NCBI GenBank assembly: GCA_937867415.1 | Contig: CALMKO010000090.1 | Location: forward strand, 1 to 37,909 | From: an uncultured Verrucomicrobiota bacterium | Lineage (GTDB): Bacteria; Verrucomicrobiota; Verrucomicrobiia; Verrucomicrobiales; Akkermansiaceae | Reading direction: 5' to 3' | DNA length: 37,909 nt | Shown: positions 10,560 through 18,778 of the stretch, one piece after another | How the letters are laid out: each line of letters opens with the position of its first letter | How positions within the stretch are numbered: the first letter of the stretch is position 1 | Notes under the pieces: model-generated | What the model saw: the letters and a program-made list of their open reading frames with translations, nothing else | What the model was told of the DNA's origin: nothing | Database searches by the model: none | Made by a program: the position numbers and the translations under genes

Positions 10560-10904
10560 ATGACATCGAGACCGATTTTCACCGTCCTCACAGCCGCATC
10601 CTTCGCCGCTTGTTCGCCCGGGCCTGGCTCTGCCATCCCGCAATCAGGCATCGAACGCCAAATGCTCGGTCTGATGCAAAAGTTCGACCGCTGGGATTAC
10701 GATGGAGATGGTGAACTCAACGCTCGTGAAATCGATACCGGGATCCGCACCCTCAAGGGTAGCTCGCGGGCGGTCACCTATACCGCGGACGAGGTCATCG
10801 CGCACTATGACCAAAATGGCAACAAGACCATTTCCCTCCGCGAGGCGCAGGCGGGATATCGTCAACGCACCGACCAACGGGACAACCCACCTGCGGAACG
10901 TTGA
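10560..10904 (+). CDS. Small exported EF-hand protein (possible lipoprotein)
   Basis: A 114-residue protein with two 12-residue EF-hand loops. Loop 1 is D46-Y-D-G-D-G-E-L-N-A-R-E57; loop 2 is D84-Q-N-G-N-K-T-I-S-L-R-E95. Both have acidic or Asn ligands at positions 1, 3 and 5 and Glu at 12, so both should bind calcium. The N-terminus is a short hydrophobic signal ending at SFAAC (Cys18), which could be a lipobox, though Phe at -3 is not ideal. It therefore probably sits in the periplasm or on a membrane. The ATG follows the spacer ACAAGCC without a strong ribosome-binding site. Neighbouring genes do not suggest a role. EF-hand lipoproteins of this kind are common in Verrucomicrobiota and Planctomycetota and mostly uncharacterised. 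Confidence 0.78.
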   Translation: MTSRPIFTVLTAASFAACSPGPGSAIPQSGIERQMLGLMQKFDRWDYDGDGELNAREIDTGIRTLKGSSRAVTYTADEVIAHYDQNGNKTISLREAQAGYRQRTDQRDNPPAER

Positions 10905-11016: not shown

Positions 11017-11847
11017 ATGGCAAAGATCGGTGAACGTGCATCCCTCCAAATCCTCCACGAAAAGGCGTTCGGGCTCTTTCTCGATGGCGGCGAACTTGGA
11101 GAAATTCTCCTTCCGCGCCGTGAAATGCCTGCCAGATGGGCCCTCGGTGAGAATCTTGACGTTTTCATTTATCTCGACTCGGAAGATCGCCAGGTCGCCA
11201 CCCTCAAAAACCCCAAAGTCATGCCGGGTCGATTTGGCAGGCTGAAATGCGTGGACATCACCGGTGTCGGCGCCTTCCTCGACTGGGGGCTTCCCAAGGA
11301 TCTGCTTGTTCCTTTTCGCGAACAAAAAGTCCGCATGGACGTCGGGAAGCATTACATCGTCTTTGTCATGGTGGATCCTCACACTGGCCGGCTCATCGCC
11401 ACCACCCGCATCGCCCGGCACATGGACTTGACTCCTCATTCCTTCCATTTGGAGCAGGAGGTGGACCTGATGATTTTCGGTAAAACCGATCTCGGTTATA
11501 AAGCGATCATCGATGGTACGCACAGCGGTCTAGTCTTTGCAAATGAGGTGTTCCAGGACTTGCAGCCCGGGGAGTTGCTCAAGGGCTATATCGCGGCCAT
11601 TCGTCCGGATGGAAAAATCAACGTGAGCCTGCACGCCGCCGGCCGGATCAAAGTGGAAGGCTTGGAAGGTCAGATCCTCGCGGAACTGGAAGCCCGCGGC
11701 GGGTTCTGGGCCATCGGCGATCACAGCCCGGCAGCTGAGATCCATCGCGAGCTTGGGGTCAGCAAGCGCACCTTCAAACAAGCCACCGGCGCTCTCTTCA
11801 AAAAAGGCCGAATCACCTTGGAGGGAAACGGGATCAGGACTACCTGA
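11017..11847 (+). CDS. CvfB-like S1-domain RNA-binding protein
   Basis: A 276-residue protein matching the CvfB/YitL family, built of tandem S1-like OB domains and a C-terminal winged helix. The first domain (GERASLQILHEKAFGLFLDG, then GEILLPRREMP) and the later VDITGVGAFLDWGLPKDLLVPF are the family's best-conserved parts. A third OB segment spans the DLMIFGKTDLGYKAIIDG stretch. The end, SPAAEIHRELGVSKRTFKQA then TGALFKKGRITL, is the winged helix. CvfB affects virulence-factor expression in Staphylococcus and binds RNA; the role here is likely post-transcriptional regulation or translation. The gene stands alone, and a perfect hairpin overlaps its stop codon. Confidence 0.9.
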   Translation: MAKIGERASLQILHEKAFGLFLDGGELGEILLPRREMPARWALGENLDVFIYLDSEDRQVATLKNPKVMPGRFGRLKCVDITGVGAFLDWGLPKDLLVPFREQKVRMDVGKHYIVFVMVDPHTGRLIATTRIARHMDLTPHSFHLEQEVDLMIFGKTDLGYKAIIDGTHSGLVFANEVFQDLQPGELLKGYIAAIRPDGKINVSLHAAGRIKVEGLEGQILAELEARGGFWAIGDHSPAAEIHRELGVSKRTFKQATGALFKKGRITLEGNGIRTT

Positions 11848-11997: not shown

Positions 11998-12999
11998 TCA
12001 GTCGCCACCGCCGCCGCAACCTCCGCAACCACTGCTGCCGCAACCGCTGCTGCCACTGGAATCGCCGCCACCACCGTCGTCGCTCGTGTCGCTGGTGAAA
12101 CTGCTGCCGCAACCGCTGGAGCAGCCGCTGGCGTAGCTTGTGTGCGAGTGATTGCCTTGCTGCGGAGATGGTCTGAAGTGACGTTGGATCAGGGTGGCGT
12201 CTCCCGTGCCAGCCAGCGCGGACGAGCCGAACAAGGCAAAGCCCGACGATAGCGATTCGAGATCGATGGGCGGCGGTTCACTCGGGCTCTGCCTGAGGCG
12301 GTGGTGTTTTGCGCGCGCCTGGCTGAGCACGTGTTTCCCCATCAGGGTGAGCCTGCCGGTCGAGCGAGCGATCACAAGCATGGCGATGATGGTGAGAAAC
12401 AAAAGGGGGCAGAGACCCAGCACGGATTGATCGCGAGCGAGGCCGATCAGGACTAACAGCGCCCCCAGCGCCAGCAAGGCAAACAAAGGCATCACTGCGG
12501 TGAATCCTGCTTGCTTTCGCTCCGCTTCAGTGGGGCGCAGCCCGAGGGTGGCCAGCTTGACTTCGATGGGCCGCATGGATGGGAAAAGCTTTATGCACGC
12601 TTGATTCACCGGGATGCCTCTTTTTCCCGCAGTTTTAACCGCGTTTTTCAGGTGCCGTTCCAATTCGCTGAGTGCTTGTTGGGTCTCAGGGGATTTTTCA
12701 AGCAGAAGCGGTCCTCTGCGGCTTGCGAGCCACTCGATTTCACCCAGCTTGACCAAGCGAAACACGGCCAACTGCGATGTCCGCGAGGCACCGGCGGCGA
12801 GGTAGGCGAGTTCGTAGAAATCGTCGATTTCAGGAAAATACCGCGAGTCCTGATGGCGATCCAGCACCGAACGGACGCGGATGGCGCACCAGACGGTGAG
12901 AATCACCAAGGCGATGAGGTAGTAGATGAAGGACTGCATCGGCGTCCAATCCCAGATTGGTACGGTGGCGGTGATGGATGTTGTTAGGAGGTGGGTCAT
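11998..12999 (-). CDS. TIGR04222-like membrane protein with Cys/Gly-rich tail
   Basis: A 333-residue membrane protein. One helix near the N-terminus (MQSFIYYLIALVILTVWCAI) is followed by a soluble part with DDFYELAYLAAGASRTSQLA, the pattern of TIGR04222 proteins, and a region on basic and acidic helices. A helix pair (FTAVMPLFALLALGALLVLI and LCPLLFLTIIAMLVIA) lies around residues 165-215. The last 50 residues are low-complexity Ser/Gly/Cys ending SSGCGGCGGGGD. The ATG at 12999 overlaps the upstream stop as ATGA, deciding the start: upstream codons belong to the previous gene. Translational coupling to the GRDP-like gene implies joint function. The family has no known function. Domain recognition is from memory of the family pattern and is fairly sure. 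Confidence 0.72.
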   Translation of the reverse strand: MTHLLTTSITATVPIWDWTPMQSFIYYLIALVILTVWCAIRVRSVLDRHQDSRYFPEIDDFYELAYLAAGASRTSQLAVFRLVKLGEIEWLASRRGPLLLEKSPETQQALSELERHLKNAVKTAGKRGIPVNQACIKLFPSMRPIEVKLATLGLRPTEAERKQAGFTAVMPLFALLALGALLVLIGLARDQSVLGLCPLLFLTIIAMLVIARSTGRLTLMGKHVLSQARAKHHRLRQSPSEPPPIDLESLSSGFALFGSSALAGTGDATLIQRHFRPSPQQGNHSHTSYASGCSSGCGSSFTSDTSDDGGGGDSSGSSGCGSSGCGGCGGGGD

Positions 13000-13532
13000 C
13001 GGGGAGTTTTCTGGAAGAGGGATTTCAGGCGCTTGCGGGACACCCACTGCGGACGTGGGATGAGCCAAAAATGGTTAGGGTTGATCCAGCGGCTGGCACC
13101 CGCGTCACTGAAGCGGGCGGAGGATCTGGGCCAGATGTCCGGCGGGGGAGCTTCGCCGAAGATCCGCCGGTAGCTTTCGAGGGTTTTTTCGTACCAATCG
13201 ACAAATTTTTCGCCCTCAGCCCGCCCGCCGTTGGTTGGGCCGTGATGGAGGTCCTTGCCGAGCGTTTCCCGGCAGAGTTTTTGCCAGTAGCTGCGGGTGT
13301 AGATCAAATGAAGATGCCATGCGTGATCGACCTGCTCGGAGGGGGTGACCGGGTGGCCGGCGACCATGGCGAGGTGGATGAATCTCAGATACTCTCTAGC
13401 CACCTTGCCTGCGAAGGCATGGGACCACGCCTGTTCACGGGCAAGGCGGCTTGTGAATGGCAGCGCCGCGCCCGCTTCATCGAGTTGGAAGTTCTCGATT
13501 TTTTCCCGCAGCATCTTTTCTTCCAAGCCCAT
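12996..13532 (-). CDS. Glycine-rich-domain-like (GRDP-type) protein
   Basis: A 178-residue soluble protein. The segment HPVTPSEQVDHAWHLHLIYT (about 60-79) with D69, H70, W72, H73 and H75 is the signature of the GRDP (glycine-rich domain-containing protein) family known from plants and bacteria. The flanking LAREYLRFIHLAMVAG and YWQKLCRETLGK parts are consistent. The His/Asp cluster looks like a metal site, though none is proven. Its stop overlaps the start of the TIGR04222-like gene by four bases, so the two are co-translated. I do not know a biochemical activity. The GRDP domain here lacks the Gly-rich tail; the Gly/Cys tail is on the partner instead. The upstream 113 bp separate it from the divergent UbiA-like gene. 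Confidence 0.7.
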   Translation of the reverse strand: MGLEEKMLREKIENFQLDEAGAALPFTSRLAREQAWSHAFAGKVAREYLRFIHLAMVAGHPVTPSEQVDHAWHLHLIYTRSYWQKLCRETLGKDLHHGPTNGGRAEGEKFVDWYEKTLESYRRIFGEAPPPDIWPRSSARFSDAGASRWINPNHFWLIPRPQWVSRKRLKSLFQKTPR

Positions 13533-13645: not shown

Positions 13646-14533
13646 ATGACGCCGTGGCTCAGGGATGTTCCGCGTGTCGTGCCTTCCACGAATCGTAAGC
13701 CATGGTGGCTCTATCCCAACTTGTTGAGCTTGGATGCTCCGCTTGTGGCCGTCGCTTGGCTTTATATTTTTGCGAAAACGTGGCGGGTCGATTACCTGCC
13801 GACGAACATTTACATCACGCTCGCCCTGGTGGTGTGGGTGATTTATGTGATGGATCGTTTGTTAGATGCGGCCATGAAGGAAGGCAAGGCTGAGAAGCTC
13901 GAAGCCAGGCATGAGTTTCACTACCGGCACCGCAAGGTTTTTTGCGCATTGGCGGTGGTGGTCGGGCTGGTGGCCTTGGTGCTGGTGGTCGGGCAGTTCA
14001 TGACCAAGGTTTACGGATACGCCATTTTCGGAGGGTTGATGGTCAGTGGTTTTTTCACCCTGTCGGTTTTTTCAAATCAGCCGAAGCATGAGATTCCTTA
14101 TTCGAAGAACATCATCGCGGGCCTGGCTTTCGGGTATGGCACGGCGATGCTTGCATTTGCCTACACCGGCTTCGAGGGGAACAAGCTTTTGCAGTCTCCC
14201 GAGCTGATCTGCTTTGTGGTGCTGTGTATTCTCAATATCTCGGCGATCGATCTCTGGGAACACGCCAACCATTCTGCAGATTTGGAAATCAAGGCAACCG
14301 ACGAGCTTGCGCTCACCTTGCCGCTCGCGTTGTTGGGTGCCATGGCATTGATATTCGCCCTGAGGGAGGCCGAGATCAGCACTCGGCCGTTTTTTTACGC
14401 GGTTCTAACGGGAGCTGCCTTGTTGCAGATCTTGAATCGGACCCGGGCACGATATTCTCCTGACGCGCTGCGTGTCCTCGCGGATGTCGCGTTGCTGCTG
14501 CCATTTCTGATTTTCTGGGTCTCTTCGCGTTAG
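13646..14533 (+). CDS. UbiA-superfamily-like membrane protein
   Basis: A 295-residue polytopic membrane protein of about eight or nine helices. A DxxxD motif lies in VIYVMDRLLDAAM (about residues 71-75) and a second acidic cluster in ISAIDLWEHANHSADLE. UbiA-type prenyltransferases use two Asp-rich motifs to bind prenyl diphosphate via magnesium, and the placement fits, but the motifs are not the canonical NDxxD pair and the overall match is weak. It is followed 32 bp later by fmt on the same strand. It may be a lipid-modifying enzyme or an unrelated membrane protein. GGAGG at 13626-13630 precedes a short out-of-frame ATG at 13633; the true start at 13646 is likely but not certain. Confidence 0.5.
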   Translation: MTPWLRDVPRVVPSTNRKPWWLYPNLLSLDAPLVAVAWLYIFAKTWRVDYLPTNIYITLALVVWVIYVMDRLLDAAMKEGKAEKLEARHEFHYRHRKVFCALAVVVGLVALVLVVGQFMTKVYGYAIFGGLMVSGFFTLSVFSNQPKHEIPYSKNIIAGLAFGYGTAMLAFAYTGFEGNKLLQSPELICFVVLCILNISAIDLWEHANHSADLEIKATDELALTLPLALLGAMALIFALREAEISTRPFFYAVLTGAALLQILNRTRARYSPDALRVLADVALLLPFLIFWVSSR

Positions 14534-17176: not shown

Positions 17177-18016
17177 TTATCGCAACCGCTGCGTGAAAAG
17201 CCCGTATTTCGGGCTGAAGAGGTAGGCTGCGACAAAAAGCAGCCCCAGCACGATGACGATCGCCGGGCCTGGTGCGATTCCGAATGTCCCGGAAAGCAGG
17301 ACCGCTGCCACCGAGCCGATCCCGCCAATCAGGCCGCCGCCCCAGAACAGGGCTGAGGTCCGGTCGGTCAGCAGGGATACGGTGGCAGCGGGTGTCACCA
17401 GCAGGCCCACCGACAGGACGCAGCCGACCGCTTGCAGGGAGGAGACGAGTGCCAACACCAGCAGGGCGAAAATCAAATACTGGATGAAACGCACGGGCAC
17501 CCCTTGTGCCGCCGCCACGTTTGGCTCGAAGAGGGTGAGCAGGATCGGCCGCATCAGCAAGTTGGTGATCAACAGGGTGAAGGCTCCGATTCCGAAGGCG
17601 ATCCAGATATCCGTGTTCCCGACAGCGATGATGTCGCCGAAGAGCCAGTGTTCCAGTTCCTGGCGGGTATCCAGCTTCGGCAGCAGGGCGATCCCCGCTG
17701 CAAAAGCCGCGGTGTAGAGTACGGCCAGGGCAGTGCCTTGCTCGACCCGGTTTCCCCGGGCGACGGCCACGGAGCCGAGCCCCACCAACAAGGCCGCGAA
17801 CATCGCCCCGAAGAAGGCATTCCACTGGCTCAGCGCGCCGGTGAGGAAGATGCCCAGCGCGATGCCCGGCAGCATGGTGTGGGAAAGTGCGGAAACCGAC
17901 AGGGCGTTGCGCCGCAATACCACGAAGCCGCTGAAAAAGCCGTTGGCAAAGCCGATGAACCCGGCGGTCGCAAGTGCTCGCTGATAGAATGGATTGTGAA
18001 TGAGCTCGAAGTCCAT
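17177..18016 (-). CDS. Metal ABC transporter permease (ZnuB/MntB family)
   Basis: A 279-residue permease of the zinc/manganese/iron ABC-3 family with about eight to nine helices. FSGFVVLRRNALSVSALSHT and LPGIALGIFLTG match the family, as does the late SVGLLVTPAATVSLLTDRT. It follows the ATPase by 3 bp, in an operon with that gene and a membrane-anchored unknown. No solute-binding protein is encoded here, so one must lie elsewhere or the transporter works without one. The metal (Zn, Mn or Fe) cannot be assigned from sequence. Confidence 0.9.
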   Translation of the reverse strand: MDFELIHNPFYQRALATAGFIGFANGFFSGFVVLRRNALSVSALSHTMLPGIALGIFLTGALSQWNAFFGAMFAALLVGLGSVAVARGNRVEQGTALAVLYTAAFAAGIALLPKLDTRQELEHWLFGDIIAVGNTDIWIAFGIGAFTLLITNLLMRPILLTLFEPNVAAAQGVPVRFIQYLIFALLVLALVSSLQAVGCVLSVGLLVTPAATVSLLTDRTSALFWGGGLIGGIGSVAAVLLSGTFGIAPGPAIVIVLGLLFVAAYLFSPKYGLFTQRLR

Positions 18017-18019
18017 GAT

Positions 18020-18778
18020 CTATTTGCCGACAGGTTCGTAAAACGTACGTGCGATGAGTTCCGGGGTGAGAACCTCGGTTACCGGGCCGAATGCCAGGGC
18101 GCGCGTGGAGAGGATGAGCGCTTCATCAAAGAGCTGTGGAACGGTGTTGAGATCATGATGCGAGGCGAGCACCAGGCGTCCCTCATGGGCAAGCTTTTCC
18201 AAAAGATCGCCAAGCAGGTGTGAGGCGTTCCGATCCAGGCCGGTGAAGGGTTCGTCTAGCAGGAGGACGTGCGCCTCCTGGGCGAGGGCGCGGGCGAGGA
18301 AAGCGCGTTGTTGCTGGCCGCCGGACAACTCGCGGATTTGGCGGTCCTGAAGATCGAGCAGGGCGAGCGATTCCAGCGCCTTGTCCACCGCCTGGTCATC
18401 CGCTGGGGTGAAGTTCCTCCACCATCCGGTCTGTGGATAGCGGCCCATTTCCACAAGGCCGCGCACGGTGATGGGGAACGACCAGTCAACTTCCTCGCGT
18501 TGTGGCAGATAGGCAAACTCGCGAGACCACTTTTTGACGGTCGTGCCACGCCACAGAATCGTCCCTCGGTCGCGGGGGATCAATCCTGCGATGGCCTTGA
18601 GCAGGGTGCTTTTGCCCGCGCCGTTCGGACCGATCAGCGCCACTCGGTTTCCGCATGAGGTTGCAAGTGAAATGTCTTCCAGTGCCACGACCCGGCGGTA
18701 GGATACGGATAAGTCTTTGATCACCAATTCATGGTGATAGCCATGGTGGGCGCAGCTGTCGTGGTGAGTCTCACTCAT
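18020..18778 (-). CDS. Metal ABC transporter ATP-binding protein (ZnuC/MntA-type)
   Basis: A 252-residue ABC ATPase. Walker A is GPNGAGKST (50-58), the signature LSGGQQQR is at 151-158, and Walker B is VLLLDEPF around 171-178. The Q-loop lies in YLPQREEVDWSFPITV, a pattern seen in metal-importer ATPases. The N-terminus is unusually His-rich (ETHHDSCAHHGYHHE), with several His and one Cys, which suits metal binding or sensing. Its ATG overlaps the stop of the upstream unknown by four bases (ATGA), and the permease starts 3 bp after its end, so all three are coupled. Confidence 0.92.
   Translation of the reverse strand: MSETHHDSCAHHGYHHELVIKDLSVSYRRVVALEDISLATSCGNRVALIGPNGAGKSTLLKAIAGLIPRDRGTILWRGTTVKKWSREFAYLPQREEVDWSFPITVRGLVEMGRYPQTGWWRNFTPADDQAVDKALESLALLDLQDRQIRELSGGQQQRAFLARALAQEAHVLLLDEPFTGLDRNASHLLGDLLEKLAHEGRLVLASHHDLNTVPQLFDEALILSTRALAFGPVTEVLTPELIARTFYEPVGK

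Follow-up and report, generated by a model that had tools for sequence, protein, structure and literature searches.

Two overlapping minus-strand genes from an uncultured bacterium of the Akkermansiaceae raise the question of why a small soluble protein should be coupled to a membrane protein that ends in a Cys/Gly/Ser tail. The pair lies in a contig of 37,909 nucleotides, analysed over its whole length and hereafter called the window. An initial annotation, made from the sequence alone, assigned the soluble partner (P0002) to the GRDP-like family (PF07173, DUF1399) and the membrane partner (P0001) to TIGR04222.

The gene pair and its two families

The features read from the locus are borne out. 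The two genes share an ATGA stop/start overlap, P0002 carries the VDHAWHLH motif with core residues that are invariant across its family, and P0001 ends in a Cys-containing tail (Table 1). Both supported flanking ORFs lie on the plus strand (11017–11847, S1/CvfB-like; 13646–14533, a weak prenyltransferase-like match), so the minus-strand pair forms a unit of its own. A promoter scan found none, a terminator scan found three against 2.3 expected, and Rfam gave no match. Elsewhere in the window, 17177–18778 encodes what looks like a metal transporter, an ABC ATPase whose start is rich in His together with a permease of the ABC-3 type, about 4 kb from the pair, and 10560–10904 encodes a small EF-hand protein of 114 aa with two EF-hand stretches.

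Table 1. Features of the gene pair, in window coordinates
Feature	Position	Strand	Remarks
Soluble GRDP-like gene (P0002, 178 aa)	12996–13532	minus	Helical domain, residues 1–143
TIGR04222 membrane protein gene (P0001, 333 aa)	11998–12999	minus	
ATGA, stop/start codon overlap of the P0002 and P0001 genes	12996–12999	minus	
VDHAWHLH motif of P0002	13308–13331	minus	Asp69, Trp72, His73, Leu74, His75 invariant in 20/20 family members
HHGPTNGG motif of P0002	13224–13247	minus	His97, Pro99, Thr100, Gly102, Gly103 invariant in 20/20
TIGR04222 domain match in P0001	12211–12921	minus	Profile match
Predicted membrane segment 1 of P0001	12880–12930	minus	Hydropathy
Predicted membrane segment 2 of P0001	12436–12486	minus	Hydropathy
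Predicted membrane segment 3 of P0001	12370–12420	minus	Hydropathy
Cys/Gly/Ser tail of P0001	12001–12129	minus	Last 43 residues, 5 Cys

The assignment of the membrane partner is clear. P0001 matches TIGR04222 at 103.7 bits (cut-off 43) over model positions 2–229 of 229, and a low-complexity tail follows the domain, the protein ending in SGCSSGCGSSFTSDTSDDGGGGDSSGSSGCGSSGCGGCGGGGD with its five Cys. A CGGCGG-coding pattern occurs four times in the genome against three for the reversed control, and only the match within the window closes a long ORF. With three rows as input, the AlphaFold2 (AF2) model of P0001 reached a mean pLDDT of 40.6, and this poor model was set aside. Both families had been described as lacking a known function. 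This description needs revising for TIGR04222, subsets of which are proposed as putative MNIO substrates in the available text of PMC12452194; demonstrated function is lacking for both families.

The soluble partner proved more distant from its family than the initial annotation implied. P0002 does not match the Pfam GRDP-like model at E ≤ 1 or reach its gathering score, and neither Pfam nor NCBIfam gives it any meaningful match. A PF07173 search of its own genome was also silent at E ≤ 1, which shows little alone, as control genomes were silent too. Among five relatives, one reached 22.3 bits against this model, just short of the cut-off of 22.7 (E 2.3e-4); a second reached 14.5 bits, and the other three gave no match. 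PF07173 matches at E ≤ 0.1 were found in 4 of 20 family members (best 9.5e-5), and 10 of 17 proteins in a mixed wider set also matched (best 3.3e-6). A profile of the 20-member family matched a separate wider bacterial set of 10 members with a probability of 99.5 (E 2.5e-23), and one wider-family member, L103, exceeds the Pfam cut-off at 26.6 bits.

Predicted structure points the same way. Our AF2 model of P0002 (11 rows, pTM 0.74, mean pLDDT 76, residues 144–178 unreliable) was compared by Foldseek with predicted viral structures; three matched at E ≤ 0.001, and all three are giant-virus proteins. One is a Harvfovirus "Glycine-rich domain-containing protein-like" model (E 1.2e-4, prob 1.00, TM 0.55/0.69), the comparison being between two predictions. 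A sequence search of the PDB with P0002 returned nothing, and what fold comparison gave was helical and weak, with a Foldseek E of 0.61 at best and a top Z of 3.3 among 260 chains; these matches were set aside. By family profile and predicted fold, then, P0002 is a remote GRDP-like relative, although the Pfam model itself does not detect it.

Linkage and architecture in other genomes

If the coupling matters, the two families should be linked elsewhere, and they are. In a survey of 387 genomes of the host phylum we counted at least 18 strong GRDP-like genes in 17 genomes, judged from at most 10 or 11 candidates per genome, so that further copies are possible, and leaving out two weak matches (G013 and G086). 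TIGR04222 genes above the cut-off occur in at least 10 of the 387, judged likewise from at most 7 or 8 candidates per genome and leaving out seven genomes with matches below the curated cut-off. In 10 of 10 such cases a GRDP-like gene lies directly before the TIGR04222 gene or in frame with it. Counted by genome, such an overlap has a chance probability of about 1e-15; counted by genus it has one of 5e-8, the fairer figure because the genomes are related.

Alphaproteobacteria, the class of Aurantiacibacter, gave a further case. Across 337 genomes of that class, scored within the same limits per genome, at least one TIGR04222 gene above the cut-off was found, adjoining a GRDP-like gene in the genome of locus L007; this genome is the centre of the draw and so counts as a single further case, not as an independent sample. 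The GRDP-like search of this class left out 11 weaker wider-family places of 16. A scan of a genome collection yielded two loci, from Aurantiacibacter zhengii and an uncultured member of the Sphingomonadaceae, in both of which the pair is four bases apart. Across the two surveys, 11 of 11 TIGR04222 genes above the cut-off adjoin or are fused to a GRDP-like gene. The linkage is shown for these two groups only; Actinomycetota, which according to the available text of PMC12452194 hold most TIGR04222 proteins, lay outside the survey. Two outcomes named beforehand as refuting the proposed pair, unlinked families and a wrong assignment, were thus tested and neither occurred, the GRDP-like assignment holding remotely.

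No neighbour family besides the partner is common to many loci; an ABC ATPase group occurs in four and a Nudix-like group in three viral loci. We found no report of the pair in the open literature searched. The main text of PMC12452194 does not contain the terms glycine-rich, GRDP, PF07173 or DUF1399, and that of a second paper on TIGR04222 is likewise free of glycine-rich, GRDP and DUF1399. The coupling of a GRDP-like domain to a membrane-anchored Cys/Gly tail is well supported.

The coupling takes four architectural forms. In form (a), the split pair with TIGR04222, are 8 of the 18 host-phylum genes together with the Aurantiacibacter zhengii and Sphingomonadaceae loci. Form (b) joins GRDP-like domain, TIGR04222 and tail in one protein, as in G187, G199 and two cyanobacterial plasmids, one from Planktothrix agardhii and one from Gloeothece verrucosa, with TIGR04222 confirmed in all four natural fusions. 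In form (c) a single protein runs from GRDP-like domain through membrane segments to tail without TIGR04222; this form accounts for another 8 of the 18 host-phylum genes, for 7 of 9 viral loci (L066 repeating L065), and for copies in Rhizobium gallicum and in G606, G696 and G648 of the Aurantiacibacter class. Form (d), a split pair whose tail sits on a small one-helix protein other than TIGR04222, is found in the other two viral loci, L070 and L071, both of which have a phage-family DNA polymerase nearby. PHROGs matches of the small L071 protein to spanin and holin were taken as single-helix similarity. Two forms coexist in genome G189 (L060, L061), where a TIGR04222 split pair is found alongside a single-protein form encoded separately.

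Mobile elements carry these forms too. A terminase is present on three of eight viral records, of 306, 363 and 374 kb, which indicates that jumbo phages encode form (c); INPHARED phages gave no match to the viral form, and a search with P0002 matched one unannotated faecal contig. On the 374-kb viral contig, which carries a terminase, a gene for a TPM-domain protein directly precedes the GRDP-tail gene (L072:3259-4977). Eight plasmid records matched, and five places were examined, leaving out H4–H6 and H10–H18; the match H8 belongs to the wider family, and the L007 TIGR04222 protein matched no plasmid. In the copy on a Deinococcus sp. KNUC1210 plasmid (L084:3953-4837) the Cys/Gly tail letters are out of frame with the domain, a break that is either sequencing error or decay.

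Because TIGR04222 is missing from 8 of 18 phylum genes and 7 of 9 viral loci in which domain and tail occur together, and because the remaining two viral loci use another tail protein, the recurrent partner of the GRDP-like domain is the membrane-anchored Cys/Gly tail. The pairing with TIGR04222 first noticed at this locus is thus a genuine linkage but not an essential one. The initial annotation had also held that a Gly-rich part fused to the domain in plant GRDPs is here split off, which fits the relatives that keep domain and tail in one protein. A tree of 35 domains, its bootstrap not settled, counts seven changes among the four architectures, with starred branches forcing one per group, and suggests repeated splitting or fusing of domain and tail.

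Tails are specific to these genes in their surroundings. Of the 407 non-overlapping ORFs that surround the loci, 26 have a tail by a criterion of at least three Cys and at least eight Gly within the final 40 residues. All 26 listed are either proteins that join domain and tail or the immediate partner of the domain gene; this count misses real tails in L049, L051, L054, L082 and L084 through threshold or ORF choice. The tails are low in complexity and variable in length and composition, and Cys recurs in nearly all that were seen.

Topology and relation to known systems

Where would domain and tail meet? Where form (c) proteins have two predicted segments, Lys and Arg ahead of the first segment and beyond the last outnumber those in the loop in 16 of 16 cases; the count took in 18 form (c) proteins, two of which show one segment, and its loops are shorter than the flanks, which favours the result. 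The charge pattern suggests that domain and tail lie together in the cytoplasm in the single-protein form, rather than at the surface. For TIGR04222 proteins, the first three predicted segments would place the large middle part inside, and a weak fourth hydrophobic stretch leaves the side of the tail ambiguous. Periplasmic tails are predicted for TIGR04222 proteins in the available text of PMC12452194.

In 11 of 22 single-protein forms, namely 4 of 4 TIGR04222 fusions and 7 of 18 others (L045, L047, L048, L053, L056, L057, L058, L060, L081, L082 and L083), the membrane segment that first follows the GRDP-like domain carries a lipobox-like motif (such as LAGC, LASC or VTGC) at its outer end, a motif that resembles an internal lipoprotein signal.

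The TIGR04222 (near_uncomplex) proteins described in PMC12452194 share with P0001 the membrane protein and a Ser/Gly-rich C-terminal tail with Cys, although in the available text more than a quarter of them have no Cys near the end. They differ in company: the constant neighbour here is a GRDP-like gene rather than an MNIO gene. Bufferins, MNIO-modified Cys-rich precursors, share a Cys-rich product and a possible metal link, but they have signal peptides and MNIO and DUF2063-type partners, and no MNIO was found in the present genome.

Plant proteins offer a further parallel. As presented in the accessible part of PMC4299439, AtGRDP2 combines DUF1399 with an RNP motif and ends in a Gly-rich domain through which Cys residues are scattered (consensus [CG]GGGCGG[GC]); AtGRDP1 is built from the same parts. 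A GRDP domain and a Cys-containing Gly-rich C-terminus are thus common to both, but AtGRDP2 is a protein of 787 aa with no membrane part described in that text, while here two proteins share the parts and the tail is membrane-anchored. Going by this text and the Pfam family, the domain-tail coupling may reach plants.

In layout, there is an analogy with borosins, self-modifying RiPP precursors whose acting domain and substrate tail are likewise fused or split (PMC7878506, PMC8429565 and PMC11395268, in the parts available). Borosin enzymes are N-methyltransferases, and P0002 has no methyltransferase match. By this analogy the GRDP-like pair may work like a self-modifying precursor of borosin type, yet it is no borosin family member.

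What the domain may do to the tail

We tentatively favour, with somewhat less than even confidence, a split self-acting protein in which an Asp/His domain binds and matures the Cys/Gly tail. The pair would be the split form of a two-part protein, made up of a cytosolic GRDP-like helical domain that bears the invariant Asp/His set and a membrane-anchored Cys/Gly tail. The domain would dock on the tail at the inner membrane face and, probably with a bound metal, mature it by a covalent change of Cys or by assembly of a metal centre on Cys, acting in trans in the P0002/P0001 pair and in cis in fused relatives. A metal site is suggested by the invariance of Asp, His and Pro; the domain-tail contact, the cytosolic tail and the kind of maturation are likewise inferred. 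As to chemistry, Cys maturation is our leading guess, closely followed by metal loading that leaves the tail covalently unchanged. In favour of this reading stand the constant coupling with TIGR04222, the natural fusions, the TIGR04222-free forms, the confinement of such tails to this system, the scarcity of other shared neighbours, the invariant Asp/His residues, the charge pattern and the published make-up of plant GRDP2.

Several observations count against maturation of the tail. No enzyme of known structure in the PDB shares the Asp/His set of P0002, and no PDB fold match was usable. Tails are absent or doubtful in places: the partner ORF of G243, of form (a), stops near the contig end with no tail seen, the G606 tail has a single Cys, G648 has a second, tail-less copy, and the Deinococcus tail is out of frame. 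The wider-family members L096, L100, L101 and L005 have no Cys end, and two Arabidopsis DUF1399 paralogues have no tail in the accessible text of PMC4299439. A periplasmic tail, as predicted in the available text of PMC12452194, would part tail from domain.

Metal handling without covalent chemistry is a somewhat less likely alternative: a soft metal such as copper, zinc or iron would be chelated by the Cys tail and loaded, unloaded or sensed by the Asp/His domain, making a membrane-tethered buffer or sensor. A Cys-rich tail beside invariant Asp/His residues suits such a role; bufferins, other Cys-rich bacterial products, chelate copper according to the available text of PMC12452194, and a metal-type ABC transporter is encoded nearby in the window, though as a unit separate from the pair. 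Yet no metal resistance or uptake family is common to the loci, and plain chelation leaves the constant company of one specific helical domain unexplained. The variable, low-complexity tails could also be disordered, sticky or acylated membrane-proximal segments serving as a structural or regulatory tether, with the GRDP-like domain as a protein-binding scaffold or sensor and no modification at all; plant GRDPs, known from the accessible text of PMC4299439 by growth and stress phenotypes without biochemistry, would be at home here. We think this improbable, since the invariant Asp, His and Pro look more like a site than a scaffold surface, and Cys is found in nearly all tails seen.

Modification of the TIGR04222 tail by an MNIO enzyme, with the GRDP-like protein as a PME-like recognition partner, is the classical route and here a very unlikely one. 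The available text of PMC12452194 links Cys-tailed TIGR04222 subsets to MNIO genes and reports that at least 10% of TIGR04222 clusters include a PME-type 2 partner and that MNIO genes are absent from a third of TIGR04222 genomes. In the present genome (95.75% complete) PF05114 is absent at E ≤ 1, and control genomes matched. Of 19 carriers, 12 lack it too. Two of the seven that have it carry it on the contig of the locus, at a distance of about 117 kb or 1.6 Mb, and five on a different contig, none being shown at the locus. GRDP-tail proteins are present in phages too. P0002 does not match the Pfam DUF2063 (PME-type 2) model, and no such protein is among the PDB fold matches listed, although the soluble protein may still have a PME-type 2 fold. 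Given the absence of PF05114 from this genome and from 12 of 19 carriers, MNIO is not the general explanation for this group, and the pairing suggests that TIGR04222 tails have a role that needs no MNIO.

Extended to the whole family, the self-acting reading would make the GRDP/DUF1399 domain an ancient tail-maturing enzyme of bacteria, jumbo phages and plants, working in cis or in trans and forming a new self-modifying or metal-assembling class outside MNIO chemistry. This generalisation we consider unlikely as it stands. Even so, the recurrent tail companion gives a testable hypothesis for the domain, and the bacterial and phage module may connect to plant GRDP proteins with growth and stress phenotypes.

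The wider D..WH family shows variants of its own. Read by eye, short Cys-containing ends (CGC..C, C..C..C, MCGG) occur in 8 of 11 alphaproteobacterial-class members (L095, L097, L098, L099, L102, L103, L104 and L106), and also in L085, L086 and L006. In L085:3812-5790 (Rhizobium gallicum, near nifW and nifS) and L086:490-2766 (a human faecal contig), a D..WH..F protein with a CxGCxGC end is followed by a glycosyltransferase-like gene. The protein of L103:730-1887, which lies above the Pfam GRDP-like cut-off, ends in MCGGMLKDD-type repeats that resemble a multi-core precursor, and a SET-domain gene comes after it.
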